DNA of 64,000 nucleotides from Geothrix sp. 21YS21S-2 (GTDB lineage: Bacteria > Acidobacteriota > Holophagae > Holophagales > Holophagaceae), in the NCBI RefSeq assembly GCF_030846775.1, contig NZ_CP132910.1, forward strand, positions 3,909,001 to 3,973,000, written 5' to 3'. The position numbers and the translations under genes were made by a program. Each line of letters opens with the position of its first letter. The first letter of the stretch is position 1. This document shows positions 35,309 through 63,570 of this stretch, piece after piece. The notes beneath the pieces are model-generated. The model searched no databases, was not told the DNA's origin, and saw nothing but the letters and a program-made list of their open reading frames with translations.

Positions 35309-35362
35309 ATCATTGGCTTTGCTTATGGACCTATTCATTCCGCGCAGGATGTCCCGCGCGCG

Positions 35363-35391
35363 TTGACACGCGGCCAGGCAGGGCCTATTTC
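35363..35391 (+). promoter_or_regulatory. Sigma-70-type promoter before the leader peptide
   Basis: TTGACA at 35363-35368 and TATTTC at 35386-35391 are separated by 17 bases. Transcription would begin about seven bases further, at or just before the ATG at 35401, so the leader peptide message would be leaderless. Confidence 0.6.
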
Positions 35392-35400
35392 TTGAATCAC

Positions 35401-35541
35401 ATGATGCAGCTCCCTTCCACCTCCGCTCCCGTCGCCGCTCACGCCGGCCTCCGGGGAGCGCGCGTGCCGGAGGCCGTCCTCGCCCTTGCCAGCCTGTTCA
35501 TTACGGTCGTAATTATCGGACCCGGGGCGGGGGCTTTCTAG
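35401..35541 (+). CDS. Leader peptide of a branched-chain amino acid type attenuator
   Basis: A 46-residue peptide ending in LALASLFITVVIIGPGAGAF. The ITVVII run followed by a Gly/Pro stretch resembles the E. coli IlvL leader, in which Ile, Val and Leu codons sense their charged tRNAs. The control codons lie at 35500-35517. Just after them, GGGGCGGGGG can pair with CCGCCCCGC in the terminator's 5' arm, which would be the antiterminator. There is no ribosome site, in keeping with a leaderless transcript. The family resemblance and the alternative pairing are seen; regulation is inferred. Confidence 0.6.
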   Translation: MMQLPSTSAPVAAHAGLRGARVPEAVLALASLFITVVIIGPGAGAF

Positions 35542-35565
35542 AACGCACAGGAAAGAAACCCAACC

Positions 35566-35598
35566 GCCCCGCACCCGAAAGGTCGCGGGGCTTTTTTT
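35566..35598 (+). terminator. Intrinsic terminator (attenuator)
   Basis: Stem GCCCCGC (35566-35572) pairs with GCGGGGC (35585-35591), with three more inner pairs (ACC/GGT) around a CGAAA loop, followed by seven T (35592-35598). It begins 24 bases after the leader-peptide stop, as in amino-acid operon attenuators. Confidence 0.85.
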
Positions 35599-35626
35599 CA
35601 TCCCATTCCCACCAGCGAGGTTTCAC

Positions 35627-35809
35627 ATGTCCCCAGTCCTCCGCAGCACCTCAGCCCCCATGGACGCCCGGAAGGCCAGCCAGGGCTCCCAGGGCCGCAC
35701 GCCGGGAAGCGATGGGGCGGAAGCCGGCCCCCGCACCCCGTCCCCGGCCACCCGGCAGACCGAGGCGCCCGAGATGATGGACGCCTGGAATTTCCGCCTG
35801 CTGGTCTGA
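35627..35809 (+). CDS. Small frame after the attenuator (60 aa)
   Basis: A 60-residue frame with GAGG six bases before its ATG. It is Ser/Pro/Arg/Gly-rich and low in complexity until the end, MMDAWNFRLLV. Its opening LRSTSAPMDARKA is faintly like LPSTSAPVAAHAG in the leader peptide. It is the only frame between the attenuator and the convergent Fic gene. It may be a real small protein or residual sequence where the regulated operon used to be. Confidence 0.35.
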   Translation: MSPVLRSTSAPMDARKASQGSQGRTPGSDGAEAGPRTPSPATRQTEAPEMMDAWNFRLLV

Positions 35810-36979
35810 TCAGCTTCTGAACGCCTCCGGCAGGAAGCGGTCCAGGTCCACCCGGTAGGAGGCGCTCCGCGCTTCCCCGAAGGGCACGACCAGGCCCATC
35901 TCCGCCAGGGCGGCGAGGTCGCGCACGGCGGTGGCGCGGCTGGTCGTCGTGATGGCGCGGTAGCGGCGGTTGCTCACGGCGAGGTCGGCGCTCATGGGGG
36001 AAAGGACGCTCCTGAGCACCTTTTCCTGGCGTTCGTTGAGCGGGAGGCGGCGGACCTCGGCCCAGAACCGGCCCCGGGCCAGGACCCGGCCCACCTCCTG
36101 GACGCCCTGGCCCGTGGCGGCTTCCACCTGCCCGAGGAACCAGGCCAGCCAGTCGGTGATGTCCAGGCTCCCGCGCTGGGCATGCTCCAGCGCGTCATAG
36201 TAGGCCTGCCGGTTCCTCATGATGTGGGCGGACAGGGAATAGAAGCGCCGCGGGAGCCGCTCGTCCTGGGAGAGGGCGAGGTCGGTCAGGGTCCGGGCGA
36301 GCCGGCCGTTGCCGTCGGCCAGGGGATGCAGGGTGACGAACCAGAGGTGCGTGAGGCCCGCGCGGAGAAGGCCGTTCAGGCCCTCGGGAGGATGGTTGAA
36401 CCAGTCCAGGAAGGTCTCGAGGCCGGATTCCAGCCCCGCGCGGCCGGGGGCCTCGAAGTGGACCGTCTCCGGTTCTCCCGGGCGGCGCCCGAGGGTGGCC
36501 ACGACCATGGGGTAGTCTCCTCGCAGCTCGCCGGCGGGGAGGGTCCGGAGGCCGTCCGGGACGCCCCTGGGAAAGAGGGCCCGGTGCCACCCGAAGATCC
36601 GTTCGAGGGTGAGGGGCGATCGCCAGCCTTCCGCCGCCTCGGCCAGGATGTTGACGACCGGGTCGACCCGCCGCAGGCTGCCGGTGGCCTGTGCGAGGTT
36701 CGTCGCGACGCCCAGGCGGAGCATCATGGAGGCCCGGACGGATTCCAGGTCGAGGCTGACACCTTCGATGGCGCTGCTGTTCACCACCTCCCGCGCCATG
36801 GCCTCCACCGCCGTTTCACCCGCGGCGAAGCCCCCGATGGCCCTCACGACGCCCAGCAGCTCGGCCTGGGCGCGGCGGGCCGAATCCAGCGGGCCGGACA
36901 AGCGTAAGGAATCCCACGCGAGCGCAGGCCAACCCGGGAGCTCCCATATGAACGTGTGTCCGGTCCTGGCCCTGGCCAT
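35810..36979 (-). CDS. Fic family AMP-transferase
   Basis: A 389-residue Fic protein. An N-terminal DUF4172-like start (TFIWELPGWPALAWDSLRL) is followed by the inhibitory helix with the (S/T)xxxE motif in NSSAIEGVSLDLES, then the Fic core LHPLADGNGRLARTL (HPLxDGNGR, with Leu where Phe is usual). The C-terminal region contains a winged-helix-like segment (about 305-385, NRRYRAITTTSRATAVRDLA), so it may also bind DNA. Fic enzymes modify protein hydroxyls with AMP. The ATG at 36979 has GGCGG seven bases upstream. Operator-like repeats lie directly upstream, suggesting self-regulation. Confidence 0.9.
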   Translation of the reverse strand: MARARTGHTFIWELPGWPALAWDSLRLSGPLDSARRAQAELLGVVRAIGGFAAGETAVEAMAREVVNSSAIEGVSLDLESVRASMMLRLGVATNLAQATGSLRRVDPVVNILAEAAEGWRSPLTLERIFGWHRALFPRGVPDGLRTLPAGELRGDYPMVVATLGRRPGEPETVHFEAPGRAGLESGLETFLDWFNHPPEGLNGLLRAGLTHLWFVTLHPLADGNGRLARTLTDLALSQDERLPRRFYSLSAHIMRNRQAYYDALEHAQRGSLDITDWLAWFLGQVEAATGQGVQEVGRVLARGRFWAEVRRLPLNERQEKVLRSVLSPMSADLAVSNRRYRAITTTSRATAVRDLAALAEMGLVVPFGEARSASYRVDLDRFLPEAFRS

Positions 36980-36993
36980 GGTTGAACCGCCTT

Positions 36994-37076
36994 GATTCAA
37001 TTCTGGCCCTTAATTGAATCGCGATCGATCTTATTTTAAGTAAAATGCTGAGTCGTTTCTGGCCCCTAATCGAATC
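36994..37076. promoter_or_regulatory. Operator-like repeats upstream of the Fic gene
   Basis: A perfect inverted repeat with 9-bp arms GATTCAATT/AATTGAATC and a 9-base spacer lies at 36994-37020. Its right half recurs as a direct repeat: TTCTGGCCCTTAATTGAATC at 37001-37020 and TTCTGGCCCCTAATCGAATC at 37057-37076. The spacing (56 bp) and position just before the Fic start suit autoregulation by the winged-helix-like C-terminus. Confidence 0.65.
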
Positions 37077-37167: not shown

Positions 37168-38457
37168 ATGATGTCCATGGCCACCGGCAAGGTGCTGGGC
37201 TTCCTGGACGGGGCCCTGGTGTGGGACATCACCCGGAACCTGGCCCTCAACGGGCTCGGGGCCTACCTGGTGACCCGGCTGAGTTCCGTGCGCCGGGCCA
37301 TCACCGACTCCCATTACCGGGCCAAGGACCAGCTGGTGCTGGCCCTGGTCTTCGGGGCCTTCTCGGCGGCGGGCAACTTCATCGGGATCCCGGTGCACGG
37401 CGCCCTGGCCAACACCCGCATCGTGGGGCCCATCGCCGGGGGACTCATCGGCGGGCCCCTCGTGGGCATCGGGGCGGGCTTCCTGGGCGGGGCGGTGCGC
37501 TATTCCATGGGGGGCTACACGGCCCTGGCCGCCCTGGTCTCCAACGTCCTCGCGGGCCTCATCAGCGGCCTCGTCTACCGGCGCCTGGGGGCGCGGCGGA
37601 TCACCGTGCCCGTGGCGCTGGGAACGGCCGTGCTGGCCGAGCTCAACCTCAAGGCGTGCATCCTGCTCATGTCCAAGCCCTTCGCCCAGGCCTGGCAGCT
37701 GGAGCGGACCATCGCCATCCCCACCATCCTCGCCAACGCGGCGGCGGTGGGGATCTTCCTCCTGGTGGTGCGCGACGTGTACCGGGAGCAGGAGAAGATG
37801 AAGGCCCAGGCCACCCAGCAGGCCCTGCTGGCCCAGGCCGAGCTCCAGATGCTCAAGGCCCAGGTGAACCCCCACTTCCTCTACAACACGCTGACCACCG
37901 TGGGCGCCCTCACCCGCACGGATCCCGAGGCGGCCCGCACGGTGATCAAGGACCTGTCCGTCTTCCTGCGCCGGTCCCTGGACCGCGGGGAGGAGATGAC
38001 CACCCTCGCCGACGAGCTTCAGACCGTGGAGCTCTACCTGAGCCTCCAGAAGGCCCGCTTCGGCACCCGGGTGCAGGGGGACATCCAGGTGCCGCCCGAG
38101 CTCCTGGGCCTGATCCTGCCGGTGTTCATCCTCCAGCCGCTGGTGGAGAACGCCATCAAGCACGGCATCGGCCCCCGCCGCGAGGGGGGCACCGTCACCC
38201 TTCGCGCGGGCCGGGAGGCCCAGGGCGCCTGGATCGAGGTGCGGGACGACGGCCTGGGCATCGAGGAAAGGGACCTGGAGCGCCTCAACCTCCGGGGCGG
38301 CACCCCTTCGGAGACCGGCCTGGGCCTGGGCCTGCAGCACGTCCACCGGCGCCTGCGCCTCATCTTCGGGCCCGCCTCGGGGCTGGTGCTCTCCAGTGCC
38401 GGACCCGACCGGGGCACCGTGGCCCGCCTCTCCCTCCCCGCCCAGGCCATGCCATGA
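37168..38457 (+). CDS. LytS-type sensor histidine kinase
   Basis: A 429-residue membrane sensor. The N-terminal part (about 15-205) has six helices of the 5TMR-LYT type (for example GPIAGGLIGGPLVGIGAGFL). A coiled segment leads to the His_kinase domain with the phosphorylated His236 in AQVNPHFLYNTL, and the C-terminal ATPase has FILQPLVENAIKHGI and GLGLGLQHV. Such kinases sense pyruvate, cell-wall signals or membrane potential. Several in-frame ATGs (37168, 37171, 37177) are possible. It overlaps the regulator gene by four bases. Confidence 0.92.
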   Translation: MMSMATGKVLGFLDGALVWDITRNLALNGLGAYLVTRLSSVRRAITDSHYRAKDQLVLALVFGAFSAAGNFIGIPVHGALANTRIVGPIAGGLIGGPLVGIGAGFLGGAVRYSMGGYTALAALVSNVLAGLISGLVYRRLGARRITVPVALGTAVLAELNLKACILLMSKPFAQAWQLERTIAIPTILANAAAVGIFLLVVRDVYREQEKMKAQATQQALLAQAELQMLKAQVNPHFLYNTLTTVGALTRTDPEAARTVIKDLSVFLRRSLDRGEEMTTLADELQTVELYLSLQKARFGTRVQGDIQVPPELLGLILPVFILQPLVENAIKHGIGPRREGGTVTLRAGREAQGAWIEVRDDGLGIEERDLERLNLRGGTPSETGLGLGLQHVHRRLRLIFGPASGLVLSSAGPDRGTVARLSLPAQAMP

Positions 38458-39191
38458 GCCGCTTCCGGGCCGTCATCGTGGACGACGAGCCGCTGATCTG
38501 CGGCGAGCTCAAGACCCTCCTGGAGGCCCAGGAGTGGGCCTGGGTGGTGGGGGTCTATCACGACGGGGCCCGGGCCCTGGCCTTCCTGGAAGAAGAGGGG
38601 GCCGACCTGGTCTTCCTGGACATCCAGATGCCCGAGATGGGCGGCCTGGAGCTGGCGGCGCGCCTGGCGGAGCTGCCCCGGCCGCCCCGGGTGGTCTTCG
38701 TGACGGCGTACGCGCAGTACGCCCTGGAGGCCTTCAAGGTCCGGGCCATGGACTACCTCCTGAAGCCCTTCGACGCCGCGGACCTCCTGCGCATCCGGGA
38801 CCGCATGGCCGGAGCGGGGCGCATCGCCGCCGAAGCGCCCCGGTTCCCGCGCACCATCCTCGTGGAGGGCGCCACCGGGTTCGACGTGGTGCCGGTGGAC
38901 CGGATCCGGATGATCGTGGCCCGGGAGCGCGAGGTCTTCCTGGAGACCCTGGACGGCCGGAGCCGGCCCACCCGCACCCGCCTCACGGAGTTCGAGGCCC
39001 GGCTCGATCCCGCCTTTTTCCTGCGGTGCCACCGGAACTACATCGTCAACGTCGACCAGGTCGCGAACCTCACCCCCTGGTTCAACCACGCCTACCTGAT
39101 CCACCTCAAGCCCCTGCGGGACGGCGCCCCGGCCGAGATCCCCGTGGGGCGGATGTACCTGCCCCGGCTGAAGAGCGTCTTCGGCCTGTAG
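38454..39191 (+). CDS. LytTR-family response regulator
   Basis: A 245-residue regulator with an N-terminal receiver (acidic pocket Asp10/Asp11, phosphoacceptor Asp56 in FLDIQMPEMGG, Lys104 in YLLKPF) and a C-terminal LytTR DNA-binding domain (PVDRIRMIVAREREVFLETL, then RCHRNYIVNVDQV). It works with the LytS kinase upstream (ATGA overlap). The DASS transporter gene lies 118 bases downstream and is a probable target. Confidence 0.95.
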   Translation: MSRFRAVIVDDEPLICGELKTLLEAQEWAWVVGVYHDGARALAFLEEEGADLVFLDIQMPEMGGLELAARLAELPRPPRVVFVTAYAQYALEAFKVRAMDYLLKPFDAADLLRIRDRMAGAGRIAAEAPRFPRTILVEGATGFDVVPVDRIRMIVAREREVFLETLDGRSRPTRTRLTEFEARLDPAFFLRCHRNYIVNVDQVANLTPWFNHAYLIHLKPLRDGAPAEIPVGRMYLPRLKSVFGL

Positions 39192-54074: not shown

Positions 54075-54983
54075 ATGCTTTCGGCCACCGATGCCATCCA
54101 GCGGTCCTTCGAATGGACCCGCAAACTCCTGTTCGACCCCTTCTCCCTGGGGAAGTGGTGCGTCATGGGCTTCACCTCCTTCCTCGCCGCGCTCCTCGGC
54201 GGCGGAGGCCTCAACGCCCCCTCGGGCAGGCCCTTCCGGGGCTTCGGCTCCGCGGCGAAGGCCGCCTCGCCCCTGGAGGGCCTGGACGAGGTCCGCCTGT
54301 GGCTCCTGGCCCACCTCGGGCTGGTCGCGGCCCTGGGGGTGCTGGTCCTGGCCTTCCTGGTGCTCCTGACCTGGCTGGGGGCCCGCGGCCAGTTCCTGTT
54401 CCTGGACAACGTGGTGAACGATCGCGGGCGGGTGGCCGAGCCCTGGAACCGGTACCGGGAGCACGGCAACCGGGTCTTCGTGTTCCTGCTGGTCCTCCAG
54501 GCCGCAGGGCTCGCCCTGGTGGCCTTCGGGAGCTACGCGGGCTGGCGGATCGCGGGGGCCGGCGCGGCCGACTTCGAGTTCGGGCTCCAGGCCGTCAAGG
54601 GCATTCTCGCCGCCGCCGCCATCATCCTCCCCCTGGGCCTCGCGGCCATGCTGGTGGGCCAGGTCCTCCGGGACTTCGTGGTGCCGGTGATGTACCTGCG
54701 GGGAACCACCGTGGCCGAGGGCTTCGGGGTCTGGTGGCGCGAGCTGGTTCCGGGCAACGGCGGCAGCTTCGTGCTCTTCTATCTCCTGAAGCTGGTCCTC
54801 TCCATCGCCGCGGGCGTCGCGGTCTTGGTGGGGACCTGCCTCACCTGCTGCCTGGCGGGCCTGCCCTATGTCAGCTCCGTGGTGTTCCTGCCGGTGGCGG
54901 TCTTCTTCCGGGCCTACTCCCTGGCCTTCCTGGGGCAGTGCGGGGAGCCCTGGGTGCTCCTGAGGCCGGGTTCCCAGCATTGA
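54075..54983 (+). CDS. Hypothetical multi-pass membrane protein
   Basis: A 302-residue integral membrane protein with about six hydrophobic segments (for example LGLVAALGVLVLAFLVLLTW, VFVFLLVLQAAGLALVAFG, IIILPLGLAAMLVG-like and CLTCCLAGLPYVSSVVFLPV). The N-terminus has a DUF7544-like look (ATDAIQRSFEWTRKLLFDPF). No transport motif is seen. It is followed after 92 bases by leuA, probably with its own promoter between. Confidence 0.7.
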   Translation: MLSATDAIQRSFEWTRKLLFDPFSLGKWCVMGFTSFLAALLGGGGLNAPSGRPFRGFGSAAKAASPLEGLDEVRLWLLAHLGLVAALGVLVLAFLVLLTWLGARGQFLFLDNVVNDRGRVAEPWNRYREHGNRVFVFLLVLQAAGLALVAFGSYAGWRIAGAGAADFEFGLQAVKGILAAAAIILPLGLAAMLVGQVLRDFVVPVMYLRGTTVAEGFGVWWRELVPGNGGSFVLFYLLKLVLSIAAGVAVLVGTCLTCCLAGLPYVSSVVFLPVAVFFRAYSLAFLGQCGEPWVLLRPGSQH

Positions 54984-55075
54984 ATAGATTTATTGGAACC
55001 CAAGGAATCCGAATACTGATGGACGCAGGGGGGGGCCGGGACGCGTAATGGAATTTTCCTAGACCGGAAGGTCCC

Positions 55076-56620
55076 ATGACGCGCCAGCACATCGCCATCT
55101 TCGACACCACACTGAGGGACGGGGAGCAGAGCCCCGGCTGCAGCATGCAGCCCCAGGAAAAGCTGCGCATGGCCCTCCAGCTCGCGGCGCTCAAGGTGGA
55201 CGTCATCGAAGCCGGGTTCCCCGTCGCCAGCGAGGAGGACTTCGCTGCCGTCAGCCTCGTGGCCAGGCGGGTCAAGGGCCCGGTCATCGCCGCCCTCTGC
55301 CGCGCCCTGCCCCTGGACATCGACCGCGCCTGGGCCGCCCTCAAGGAGGCCTCGCGCCCCCGCATCCACACCTTCGTCTCCACCTCCGACCTGCACATGG
55401 CCCACAAGCTCCAGAAGACCCGGGCCGAGGTGCTGGCCATGACCCGTGAGGGCGTCCGCCGCGCGGCCTCCCTATGCAGGGACGTGGAGTTCAGCGCCGA
55501 GGACGCCAGCCGCAGCGACCTGGCCTTCCTCGCCGACGTGGTGGCCGTCGCCCTGGAGGAGGGCGCCACCGTCATCAACATCCCCGACACCGTGGGCTAC
55601 ACCTTCCCCGAGGAGTACCGGAACCTGATCCTTTCCCTGCGCGAGCGGGTCCCGGCCCTGGAGAAGGCCGTCATCAGCGTCCACTGCCACAACGACCTGG
55701 GCCTGGCCGTGGCCAACACCCTGGCCGCCCTTGAGGCCGGGGCCCGGCAGGTGGAGTGCACCGTCAACGGCATCGGCGAGCGCGCCGGGAACGCCTCCCT
55801 GGAGGAGGTCGTGATGGCCCTGCGCGTGCGCGGGGAGCACTTCCCCTTCGAGACCGGCATCGTCACCCAGGAGCTGTACCGCACCAGCCAGATCCTTTCC
55901 AACATCACCGGCGTGCAGGTGCAGCCCAACAAGGCCATCGTCGGCAAGAACGCCTTCGCCCACGAGTCCGGCATCCACCAGCACGGCATGCTGGCCAACC
56001 CCATGACCTACGAGATCATGACCCCCGAGAGCGTGGGCGTGAAGACCAGCAGCCTGGTGCTGGGCAAGCACAGCGGCCGCCACGCCCTCAAGCAGCGCTA
56101 CGAGGAGCTGGGCTACCCCCTGGAGAAGGGCACCCTGGAAGGGGTCTACAAGCTCTTCACGGACCTGGCGGACCACAAGCGGGAGATCTTCGACGAGGAC
56201 CTCATCGCCCTCCTCTACGACGGCATCACCGAGGATCCCCAGACCTGCCGCCTGGTGGCGGTGCAGGCCAACTCCGGCACCAACTCCATCGCCACGGCCC
56301 TGGTCACGCTGGCCTGCGCAGGCGGCGAGACCACCGAGACGGCCTCGGGCGACGGCCCCGTGAACGCCGTGTGCGAGGCCATCAACCGCATCACCGGGCT
56401 CCAGGGCGAGATCCGGGACTTCCGCCTGCACTCCGTCACCGGCGGCGCCGACGCCCAGGGCGAGGTGCACGTGCGGGTGAAGTTCCCCGAGGGGATCTTC
56501 ACGGGCAGGGCGGCCAGCACCGACATCGTGCACGGAAGCGCCCAGGCCTACCTCGACGCCATCAACAAGGTCCTCCTGGCCCGGTCGTGCCGGGAGTCCA
56601 TGACCAGCACCCACGCCTGA
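55076..56620 (+). CDS. leuA: 2-isopropylmalate synthase
   Basis: A 514-residue enzyme that condenses acetyl-CoA with 2-oxoisovalerate, the first step of leucine synthesis. The HMGL-type core starts [16 protein letters not shown] and includes [20 protein letters not shown] and [30 protein letters not shown] follows. The C-terminal LeuA allosteric domain (about 390-510) would give leucine feedback. First gene of leuABCD. No attenuator is visible in the 92 bases upstream. Confidence 0.96.
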
Positions 56621-62673: not shown

Positions 62674-63570
62674 TTACGCCTGCGGCCCGGGGAACTCCCT
62701 GCCCACCATCTCCAGGAAGGCCTTGCCCGCGATGGAGTGCGACCTGGAGGTGCGGTACACGATGCGAACGTCGCGTCCGATGGCCATCCCCTTCACCGGG
62801 GGGGAGACCAGCTCGCCGGATTCCAGCTCCTGCTTGACGCACATGCGGGGGATGAGGGCGATGCCCTCCCCGGCCTTGACGAAGTCCTTGATGGTCTCCA
62901 GGTTGGAGAGCTCCATGACGATGCGCAGGGGCACCCGCTCCCGGGCGAAGAAGTCCAGCAGGTGGGTGCGGGTGGGGGTCTGGGCGTGGTGGGCGATGAA
63001 GCTTTCCCGGCCCAGCTGCTCCAGGTCGACCACCTTGTGGGAGGCCAAGGGGTGCCCGGGGAACAGCACCAGGGCCAGCTCGTCCCGGAAGAGGAGCCGG
63101 GTGGTGAGGTCCTTGTGCACCGGGGCGTAGGACAGGAACCCGAAGTCCACGTCCTGGTCCATGAGCAGGGCGGGGATCCCGGAGGAGGGGCAGTGGGCCA
63201 CCTCGATCTTGATGGACTGGTAGGCCCTCCGGAAGGCCCGCACCAGGGGGGGCAGCACATAGCCGCTGACGCTCTCGTTGGCCGCCAGGCGCAGCACTCC
63301 GCGCTTGAAGTGGCGCAGGTTCTCCAGGGTGTGGAAGGCGTCCTGGCGCAGCTGGGCCATGCGCAGGGCATAGTCCAGCAGCGCCGAACCCGAGGCCGTG
63401 AGGGTCACCTTCCGGCTCGACCGGTCCAGGAGGGGGGTGTCGAGCTCGTCCTCAAGACGGCGCAGGGCCTGACTGACCGCCGGCTGGGAACGGTTCAGCT
63501 TCTCCGCCGCCCGGGAGAAACTCCCTTCCTGCGCCAGGCTGATCAGCACTTCCAGTTCCGGAAAGTCCAT
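62674..63570 (-). CDS. LysR-family transcriptional regulator
   Basis: A 298-residue regulator. The N-terminal winged helix is VLISLAQEGSFSRAAEKLNR followed by SQPAVSQALRRLEDEL. The C-terminal ligand-binding domain (about 90-298) has the usual two-lobed pattern with a substrate-site segment near IALIPRMC. It lies 31 bases downstream of ilvC and on the same strand; the IlvY-type arrangement would be divergent, so control of ilvC is not supported by layout. Its effector is unknown. Confidence 0.93.
   Translation of the reverse strand: MDFPELEVLISLAQEGSFSRAAEKLNRSQPAVSQALRRLEDELDTPLLDRSSRKVTLTASGSALLDYALRMAQLRQDAFHTLENLRHFKRGVLRLAANESVSGYVLPPLVRAFRRAYQSIKIEVAHCPSSGIPALLMDQDVDFGFLSYAPVHKDLTTRLLFRDELALVLFPGHPLASHKVVDLEQLGRESFIAHHAQTPTRTHLLDFFARERVPLRIVMELSNLETIKDFVKAGEGIALIPRMCVKQELESGELVSPPVKGMAIGRDVRIVYRTSRSHSIAGKAFLEMVGREFPGPQA

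Follow-up and report, generated by a model that had tools for sequence, protein, structure and literature searches.

A candidate branched-chain amino acid attenuator preceding a small protein gene in Geothrix

Results

Layout of the leader unit

A leader with an intrinsic terminator and a 60-codon gene lie together in a 64,000-nt stretch of the Geothrix sp. 21YS21S-2 genome, referred to here as the window. The features of this unit, and of the branched-chain amino acid (BCAA) genes that share the window with it, were as follows.

35324..35335, minus strand: operator-like site AATAGGTCCATA, its centre 71.5 nt ahead of the leader ATG and at about -68 relative to the inferred start of transcription (pattern search)
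35363..35391, plus strand: sigma-70-type promoter TTGACA-17-TATTTC, hexamers TTGACA at 35363-35368 and TATTTC at 35386-35391, 17-nt spacer (direct reading; TTGAC-to-ATG spacing in seven close leaders)
35401..35541, plus strand: leader peptide frame of 46 codons, ATG at 35401 (translation; related peptides at six other loci)
35476..35486, plus strand: segment 1 (GTCCTCGCCCT), partner of segment 2 (RNAalifold consensus of seven leaders)
35500..35517, plus strand: control codons ATT ACG GTC GTA ATT ATC, Ile-Thr-Val-Val-Ile-Ile (direct reading; V/I/L kept in relatives)
35523..35534, plus strand: segment 2 (CGGGGCGGGGGC), partner of segment 1 or of segment 3 (antiterminator); its core GGGGCGGGGG at 35524-35533 by direct reading
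35564..35571, plus strand: segment 3 (CCGCCCCG), 3' side of the antiterminator, sharing bases with the terminator's 5' arm
35566..35598, plus strand: intrinsic terminator hairpin and T7 tract, the seven T at 35592-35598
35617..35620, plus strand: Shine-Dalgarno-like GAGG, 6 nt ahead of the small gene (direct reading; similar in G001 and G002)
35627..35809, plus strand: small protein gene of 60 codons, genus-specific, C-terminus DAWNFRLLV (homologs in G002 and G001)
From 35810 (~35810-37000), convergent with the small gene: Fic gene (Pfam match, Fic and DUF4172)
54983..54994, plus strand: operator motif AATAGATTTATT upstream of leuA
55076..56620, plus strand: leuA, 2-isopropylmalate synthase, inferred regulon member (NCBIfam TIGR00973 above cut-off)
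62674..63570, minus strand: LysR-type regulator ending the ilvB-ilvN-ilvC operon at the window edge, candidate reader of the operator

A preliminary description had claimed the promoter, the 46-codon leader frame (FITVVIIGPGAGAF), the alternative pairing segments and the T7 terminator, and direct reading located all of them at the expected positions. The peptide encoded at 35401-35541 is MMQLPSTSAPVAAHAGLRGARVPEAVLALASLFITVVIIGPGAGAF. Segment 1 comes first along the leader, followed by the control codons and segment 2, and both terminator arms (GCCCCGC/GCGGGGC) lie inside 35564-35591. Because the leader is continuous with a long overlapping frame that enters from upstream, the start of the leader frame was inferred from the promoter and the homologs rather than from a preceding stop codon. 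A generic promoter and terminator scanner missed both elements, since its rules are stricter than the present layout. Rfam covariance models gave zero matches in the window at the gathering score, and the only sub-threshold match was anti-hemB (E 0.52). As the preliminary description had also noted, no ilv or leu gene stands downstream; the 60-codon frame and then the convergent Fic gene come next, so the unit is not the leader of an ilv or leu operon.

Each of the seven close leaders had a distance of 37-38 nt between TTGAC and the ATG. With a transcription start about 7 nt past the -10 hexamer, few nucleotides or none would be left ahead of the ATG. This constant spacing indicates that the leader peptide is probably translated from a leaderless mRNA, which agrees with the earlier proposal of a leaderless leader peptide. 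A leaderless attenuator mRNA has been described in S. meliloti: rnTrpL begins at its 5' end with the ATG of trpL (PMC7298713).

Folding and alternative pairing of the leader RNA

Folded alone, the terminator segment reached -22.4 kcal/mol, with z -3.4 relative to shuffled sequences, and none of 200 shuffles was as good. The stability of the whole leader was close to that of shuffles (z 0.16) and thus uninformative. Because structure alone is weak proof in GC-rich DNA, and the GC content of the window is 67%, relatives were used as evidence. The terminator was conserved across the seven leaders. Pairing of a segment behind the control codons with the 5' arm of the terminator, as claimed earlier, was kept over 8 bp in 7/7 close leaders; when the partners were slid by 1-3 columns, 50-59% of cells paired. 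The antiterminator duplex of the window reached -19.6 kcal/mol (z -2.6), and in each of the seven close leaders it was better than with shuffled upstream sequence (z -2.6 to -4.4); z-scores were weak in several distant leaders. The antiterminator pairs are invariant among the close leaders, and covariation is therefore absent there.

Taken together, the leader contains a control-codon run, an intrinsic terminator and an antiterminator that follows the control codons and shares bases with the terminator's 5' arm, which are sequence features of an amino acid attenuator. It has every tested sequence feature of a ribosome-mediated attenuator of this type, with predicted dependence of termination on charged tRNA and on translation of the leader.

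Related leaders in the genome and in the family

The same genome (5.25 Mb, one contig) carries a second copy of the leader, with 74% identity (E 8e-24). This paralog precedes a LysR gene, ilvA and then an asparagine synthase-like gene, the ilvA product being a threonine ammonia-lyase (TIGR01124 above cut-off). Its peptide reads ...LSVVVIIDHGAGAI, and its terminator is of the same type. A covariance model built from the seven leaders matched in 23/60 relatives, and in 26/77 genomes of the family (Holophagaceae-like Acidobacteriota). The matches precede ilvD, ilvB, thrA/aspartate kinase and thrB, gene names here being taken from reading of N-terminal sequences, with a few low-scoring matches lacking a convincing gene assignment. 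An ilvE-like gene lies behind the leader of G003. Leaders of this kind were thus found before ilvD, ilvB and ilvE in related genomes; the preliminary description had proposed looking for them before ilvB, ilvN and ilvC.

The Ile/Val/Leu run is kept in relatives, as FITVVLL in G002 and FLGVLLIG in G001, and also in the ilvA and ilvE paralogs. Conservation of both the Ile/Val/Leu run and the antiterminator pairing, on which the earlier attenuator claim depended, extends to G002, G001 and these two paralogs. In the leaders before thrA and thrB, Thr runs replace the BCAA runs. That the codon run matches the regulated gene (ilv or thr) is a signature of codon-specific attenuation, and the paralog together with the family-wide leaders indicates that the unit in the window is more than chance.

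Thr-run leaders of the same family (e.g. GITTTTT) stand before thrA/aspartate kinase and thrB at L041, L042, L047, L050, L061, L127 and L129, and they form a set of predicted threonine attenuators. Upstream of the LysR-ilvA leaders lies another conserved palindrome (TGATATCTAATATATCAGA; L003 ~2192-2215, with equivalents at L022 and L023), and not the AATAGGTC operator; the palindrome is probably the site of another regulator.

The 60-codon gene behind the leader

The same leader and small frame were found in two other species of the genus, G002 and G001. The protein of G002 is 62% identical (E 1.8e-17) and that of G001, located by reading the locus, is 42% identical. All three proteins end in D[AG]W[NS]FRLLV followed by the stop. 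The DNA pattern of this C-terminus matched once in each of the three genomes and in 0/97 other relatives. A 257-Gb genome collection, which may omit near relatives, gave four matches in unrelated phyla; these look like chance, and the pattern is rare by chance. Homologs outside the genus were found neither by protein search of 60 relatives nor by the C-terminal DNA pattern in 100 relatives. Nor was the gene detected in three drafts of genomes from the genus; one of these, G005, has a neighbouring gene more similar to that of the window than the one in G002.

Between the window and G002, differences at codon positions 1/2/3 numbered 12/13/31 (chi-square p 0.002), with pN 0.22 and pS 0.59. The gene thus shows a third-position-biased change of the kind expected under purifying selection. 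In the comparison with G001 a synonymous excess was absent, and the coding evidence therefore rests on the two conserved protein ends, MSP at the N-terminus and D[AG]W[NS]FRLLV at the C-terminus. This conservation of the frame supports the suggestion, made in the preliminary description, that the device controls a small protein.

The small protein had no relative in Pfam or NCBIfam and no meaningful one in the PDB. Single-sequence structure prediction was of low confidence (pLDDT 64.6, pTM 0.16) and gave a mostly unstructured chain in which the sole element was a C-terminal helix at 50-59, itself of low confidence. The small frame was also considered as an N-terminal piece of ilvD or ilvB and rejected, the N-termini of these showing no visible similarity when compared by eye. 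The dS of the small gene between the window and G002 was 1.2, and that of the adjacent DUF3187 gene was 0.32; the high value may be due to small sample size or to a different history, recombination for example.

A putative operator shared with BCAA genes

A 12-bp near-palindromic pattern, AWTAGRYYYATW, was written by comparing the sequences upstream of ilvB, ilvD and the unit. It occurred at seven places in the 5.25-Mb genome, compared with three for the reversed control. Four of the seven were the unit, ilvB (ilvBNC), ilvD and leuA (leuAB), and the other three had no clear BCAA link. Since leuA was not used in writing the pattern, its site is an independent match. In other genomes, places at BCAA genes or the unit made up 2/4 in G001, 3/7 in G002, 2/4 in G005, 1/2 in G003 and 0/5 in G004. 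Most of the ilvB, ilvD and unit sites helped to define the pattern, so that their presence is not independent evidence; independent evidence comes from the low total of sites and from the constant distance. In each of the three orphan units (window, G001 and G002) the centre of the operator lay 71.5 nt before the leader ATG; the distance was 71.5-72.5 nt before ilvD in two genomes and 69.5 nt before ilvB in three.

These results indicate that the unit shares a putative promoter operator with BCAA operons of the genus. The link to ilvBNC, ilvD and leuAB was absent from the preliminary description. The window that holds the unit also includes leuAB and the last part of the ilv operon. A position of about -68 from the transcription start fits a LysR-type site, and the LysR-type protein of the ilvBNC operon is probably the regulator that reads the operator. 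A degenerate copy of the operator (AATCGTCCTATT) was seen in G003 (C405, L024), about 71 nt before the ATG of the ilvE leader.

Genomic neighbourhood of the unit

In both the window and G002, a DUF3187 gene lies upstream of the unit and a LytS-type kinase downstream. By reading, the unit of G001 has a different upstream gene and a transposase-like sequence behind it. Its presence in this unrelated neighbourhood shows that the unit is conserved and not its neighbours. G005 has a DUF3187 ortholog 87% identical to that of the window (79% for G002) and then another gene; the unit was not found in the G005 assembly, which is 83% complete.

The Fic/DUF4172 gene separates the small gene from the LytS-type kinase in the window, but G002 lacks it at this place. 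The stop codons of the Fic gene and the small gene abut, which suggests insertion or loss exactly at the junction.

Discussion

We consider, with a probability of about 0.77, that the unit is a BCAA attenuator of the ribosome-mediated type that belongs to the BCAA regulon and drives a genus-specific small protein on starvation. The RNA switch appears to sense shortage of Ile, Val and Leu. According to this model, which applies the established attenuation scheme to the sequence elements described above, the unit would be a free-standing member of the regulon, and a regulator, probably the LysR-type protein mentioned above, would act at the operator near -68 and provide a promoter-level signal. 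Transcription would begin very close to the ATG, giving a leaderless transcript from which the leader peptide would be made. When charged Ile and Val tRNAs are plentiful, the ribosome would reach the stop codon just past segment 2 and mask this segment, leaving segments 3 and 4 free to form the terminator. When charged tRNA is scarce, the ribosome would stall at Ile-Thr-Val-Val-Ile-Ile and cover segment 1; segments 2 and 3 would then pair and transcription would enter the 60-codon gene. The small protein would thus be produced when BCAAs are short.

Attenuators that respond to amino acids are textbook regulators of biosynthetic operons. In E. coli, the ilvLXGMEDA operon encodes a small protein, IlvX, right behind the ilv attenuator. 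The present small gene has the same position, but an ilv operon follows IlvX and none follows here, and the likeness is one of layout. The E. coli ilvL and leuL leaders and the Corynebacterium ilvBNC leader (PMC10272879) have a BCAA codon run, a three-segment switch and a T-run terminator, as here. Unlike in those systems, the regulated product would be a free-standing small protein and not an enzyme, and the leader peptide, of 43-46 codons, is probably leaderless; the unit also belongs to a different phylum, and a sequence relation is not claimed. Within the family, the LysR-ilvA, ilvE, ilvD, ilvB, thrA and thrB leaders have the same terminator style, those of ilvA and ilvE being homologous and the others of the same type, but they stand before biosynthetic genes, unlike the unit in the window. 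The trpL system of S. meliloti has, as is probable here, a leaderless leader mRNA and an attenuator role beyond simple operon control (PMC7298713). However, its leader RNA and peptide act in trans while the attenuator still controls trpE(G), whereas a separate conserved small gene follows here.

The alternative that survives best, which we regard as improbable, is a trans-acting role for the attenuated leader RNA, the leader peptide or both, like that of rnTrpL/peTrpL in S. meliloti; these would then be the actual product, and the downstream frame would be secondary. The leader would be leaderless as in that species (PMC7298713), is long at 46 codons and stands alone. However, the peptides of the three orphan units show poor conservation outside the control region, whereas both ends of the small frame are retained together with the Shine-Dalgarno-like site before it.

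The preliminary description had also suggested that the regulated operon was lost. A remnant of this kind, with the 60-codon frame decaying or present by chance, would explain the missing ilv/leu gene, a frame without family in Pfam, NCBIfam or the PDB, and its faster change than the neighbour at synonymous sites (dS 1.2 against 0.32). Nevertheless, three species share the leader and frame, the C-terminal motif and the operator distance, with G001 in an unrelated neighbourhood, and all BCAA genes that were sought (ilvB, ilvN, ilvC, ilvD, ilvA and leuA) are present elsewhere in the genome. The recurrence of leader and frame largely refutes the loss of an operon, and we rejected this explanation as very unlikely; the attenuator features and the absence of downstream ilv/leu genes, claimed at the same time, both stand.

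Read-through serving genes further on, with the small frame as an intermediate translated spacer, is the least credible explanation: in G002 the kinase-LytTR pair lies directly behind on the same strand, 89 nt downstream, and the window has this kinase too, at 37168, but the convergent Fic gene intervenes in the window, G001 has the transposase-like sequence, and the small frame is the sole feature common to all three loci.

If the small protein is the output of a BCAA attenuator, as we favour, its shape invites a guess: the C-terminal D[AG]W[NS]FRLLV might be a docking peptide on a disordered tail rich in Pro, Ser, Gly and Ala. As a tentative extension, which we put forward as speculation, the protein could be a new BCAA-starvation effector, a disordered peptide that uses its W[NS]FRLLV end to dock on an enzyme of biosynthesis, a regulator or a protease. 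Its production would require that the LysR-type operator and the leaderless attenuator both signal shortage, and the unit would be a portable "starvation signal" cassette that moves between sites as one.

A survey from 2010 listed almost no predicted attenuators with assigned function in Acidobacteria, and before its own Firmicutes case leader-peptide systems were known only from Proteobacteria and Actinobacteria (PMC2965389). BCAA-rich upstream frames before ilvB were reported in other groups in 2023 (PMC10272879). The library that we searched held no literature combining leader peptide, attenuation and Geothrix. The present analysis documents a leader-peptide attenuator family in Acidobacteriota, and the unit is a compact and testable system. 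The convergence of operator and attenuator layers on one protein of 57-60 residues suggests that small proteins may be unrecognised outputs of starvation control.

A pair consisting of a LytS (5TMR_LYT) kinase and a LytTR regulator was observed both in the window (37168-39191) and at L021. In G002 the kinase-LytTR pair is followed by a 480-residue membrane transporter-like protein, an arrangement resembling BtsS/BtsR.
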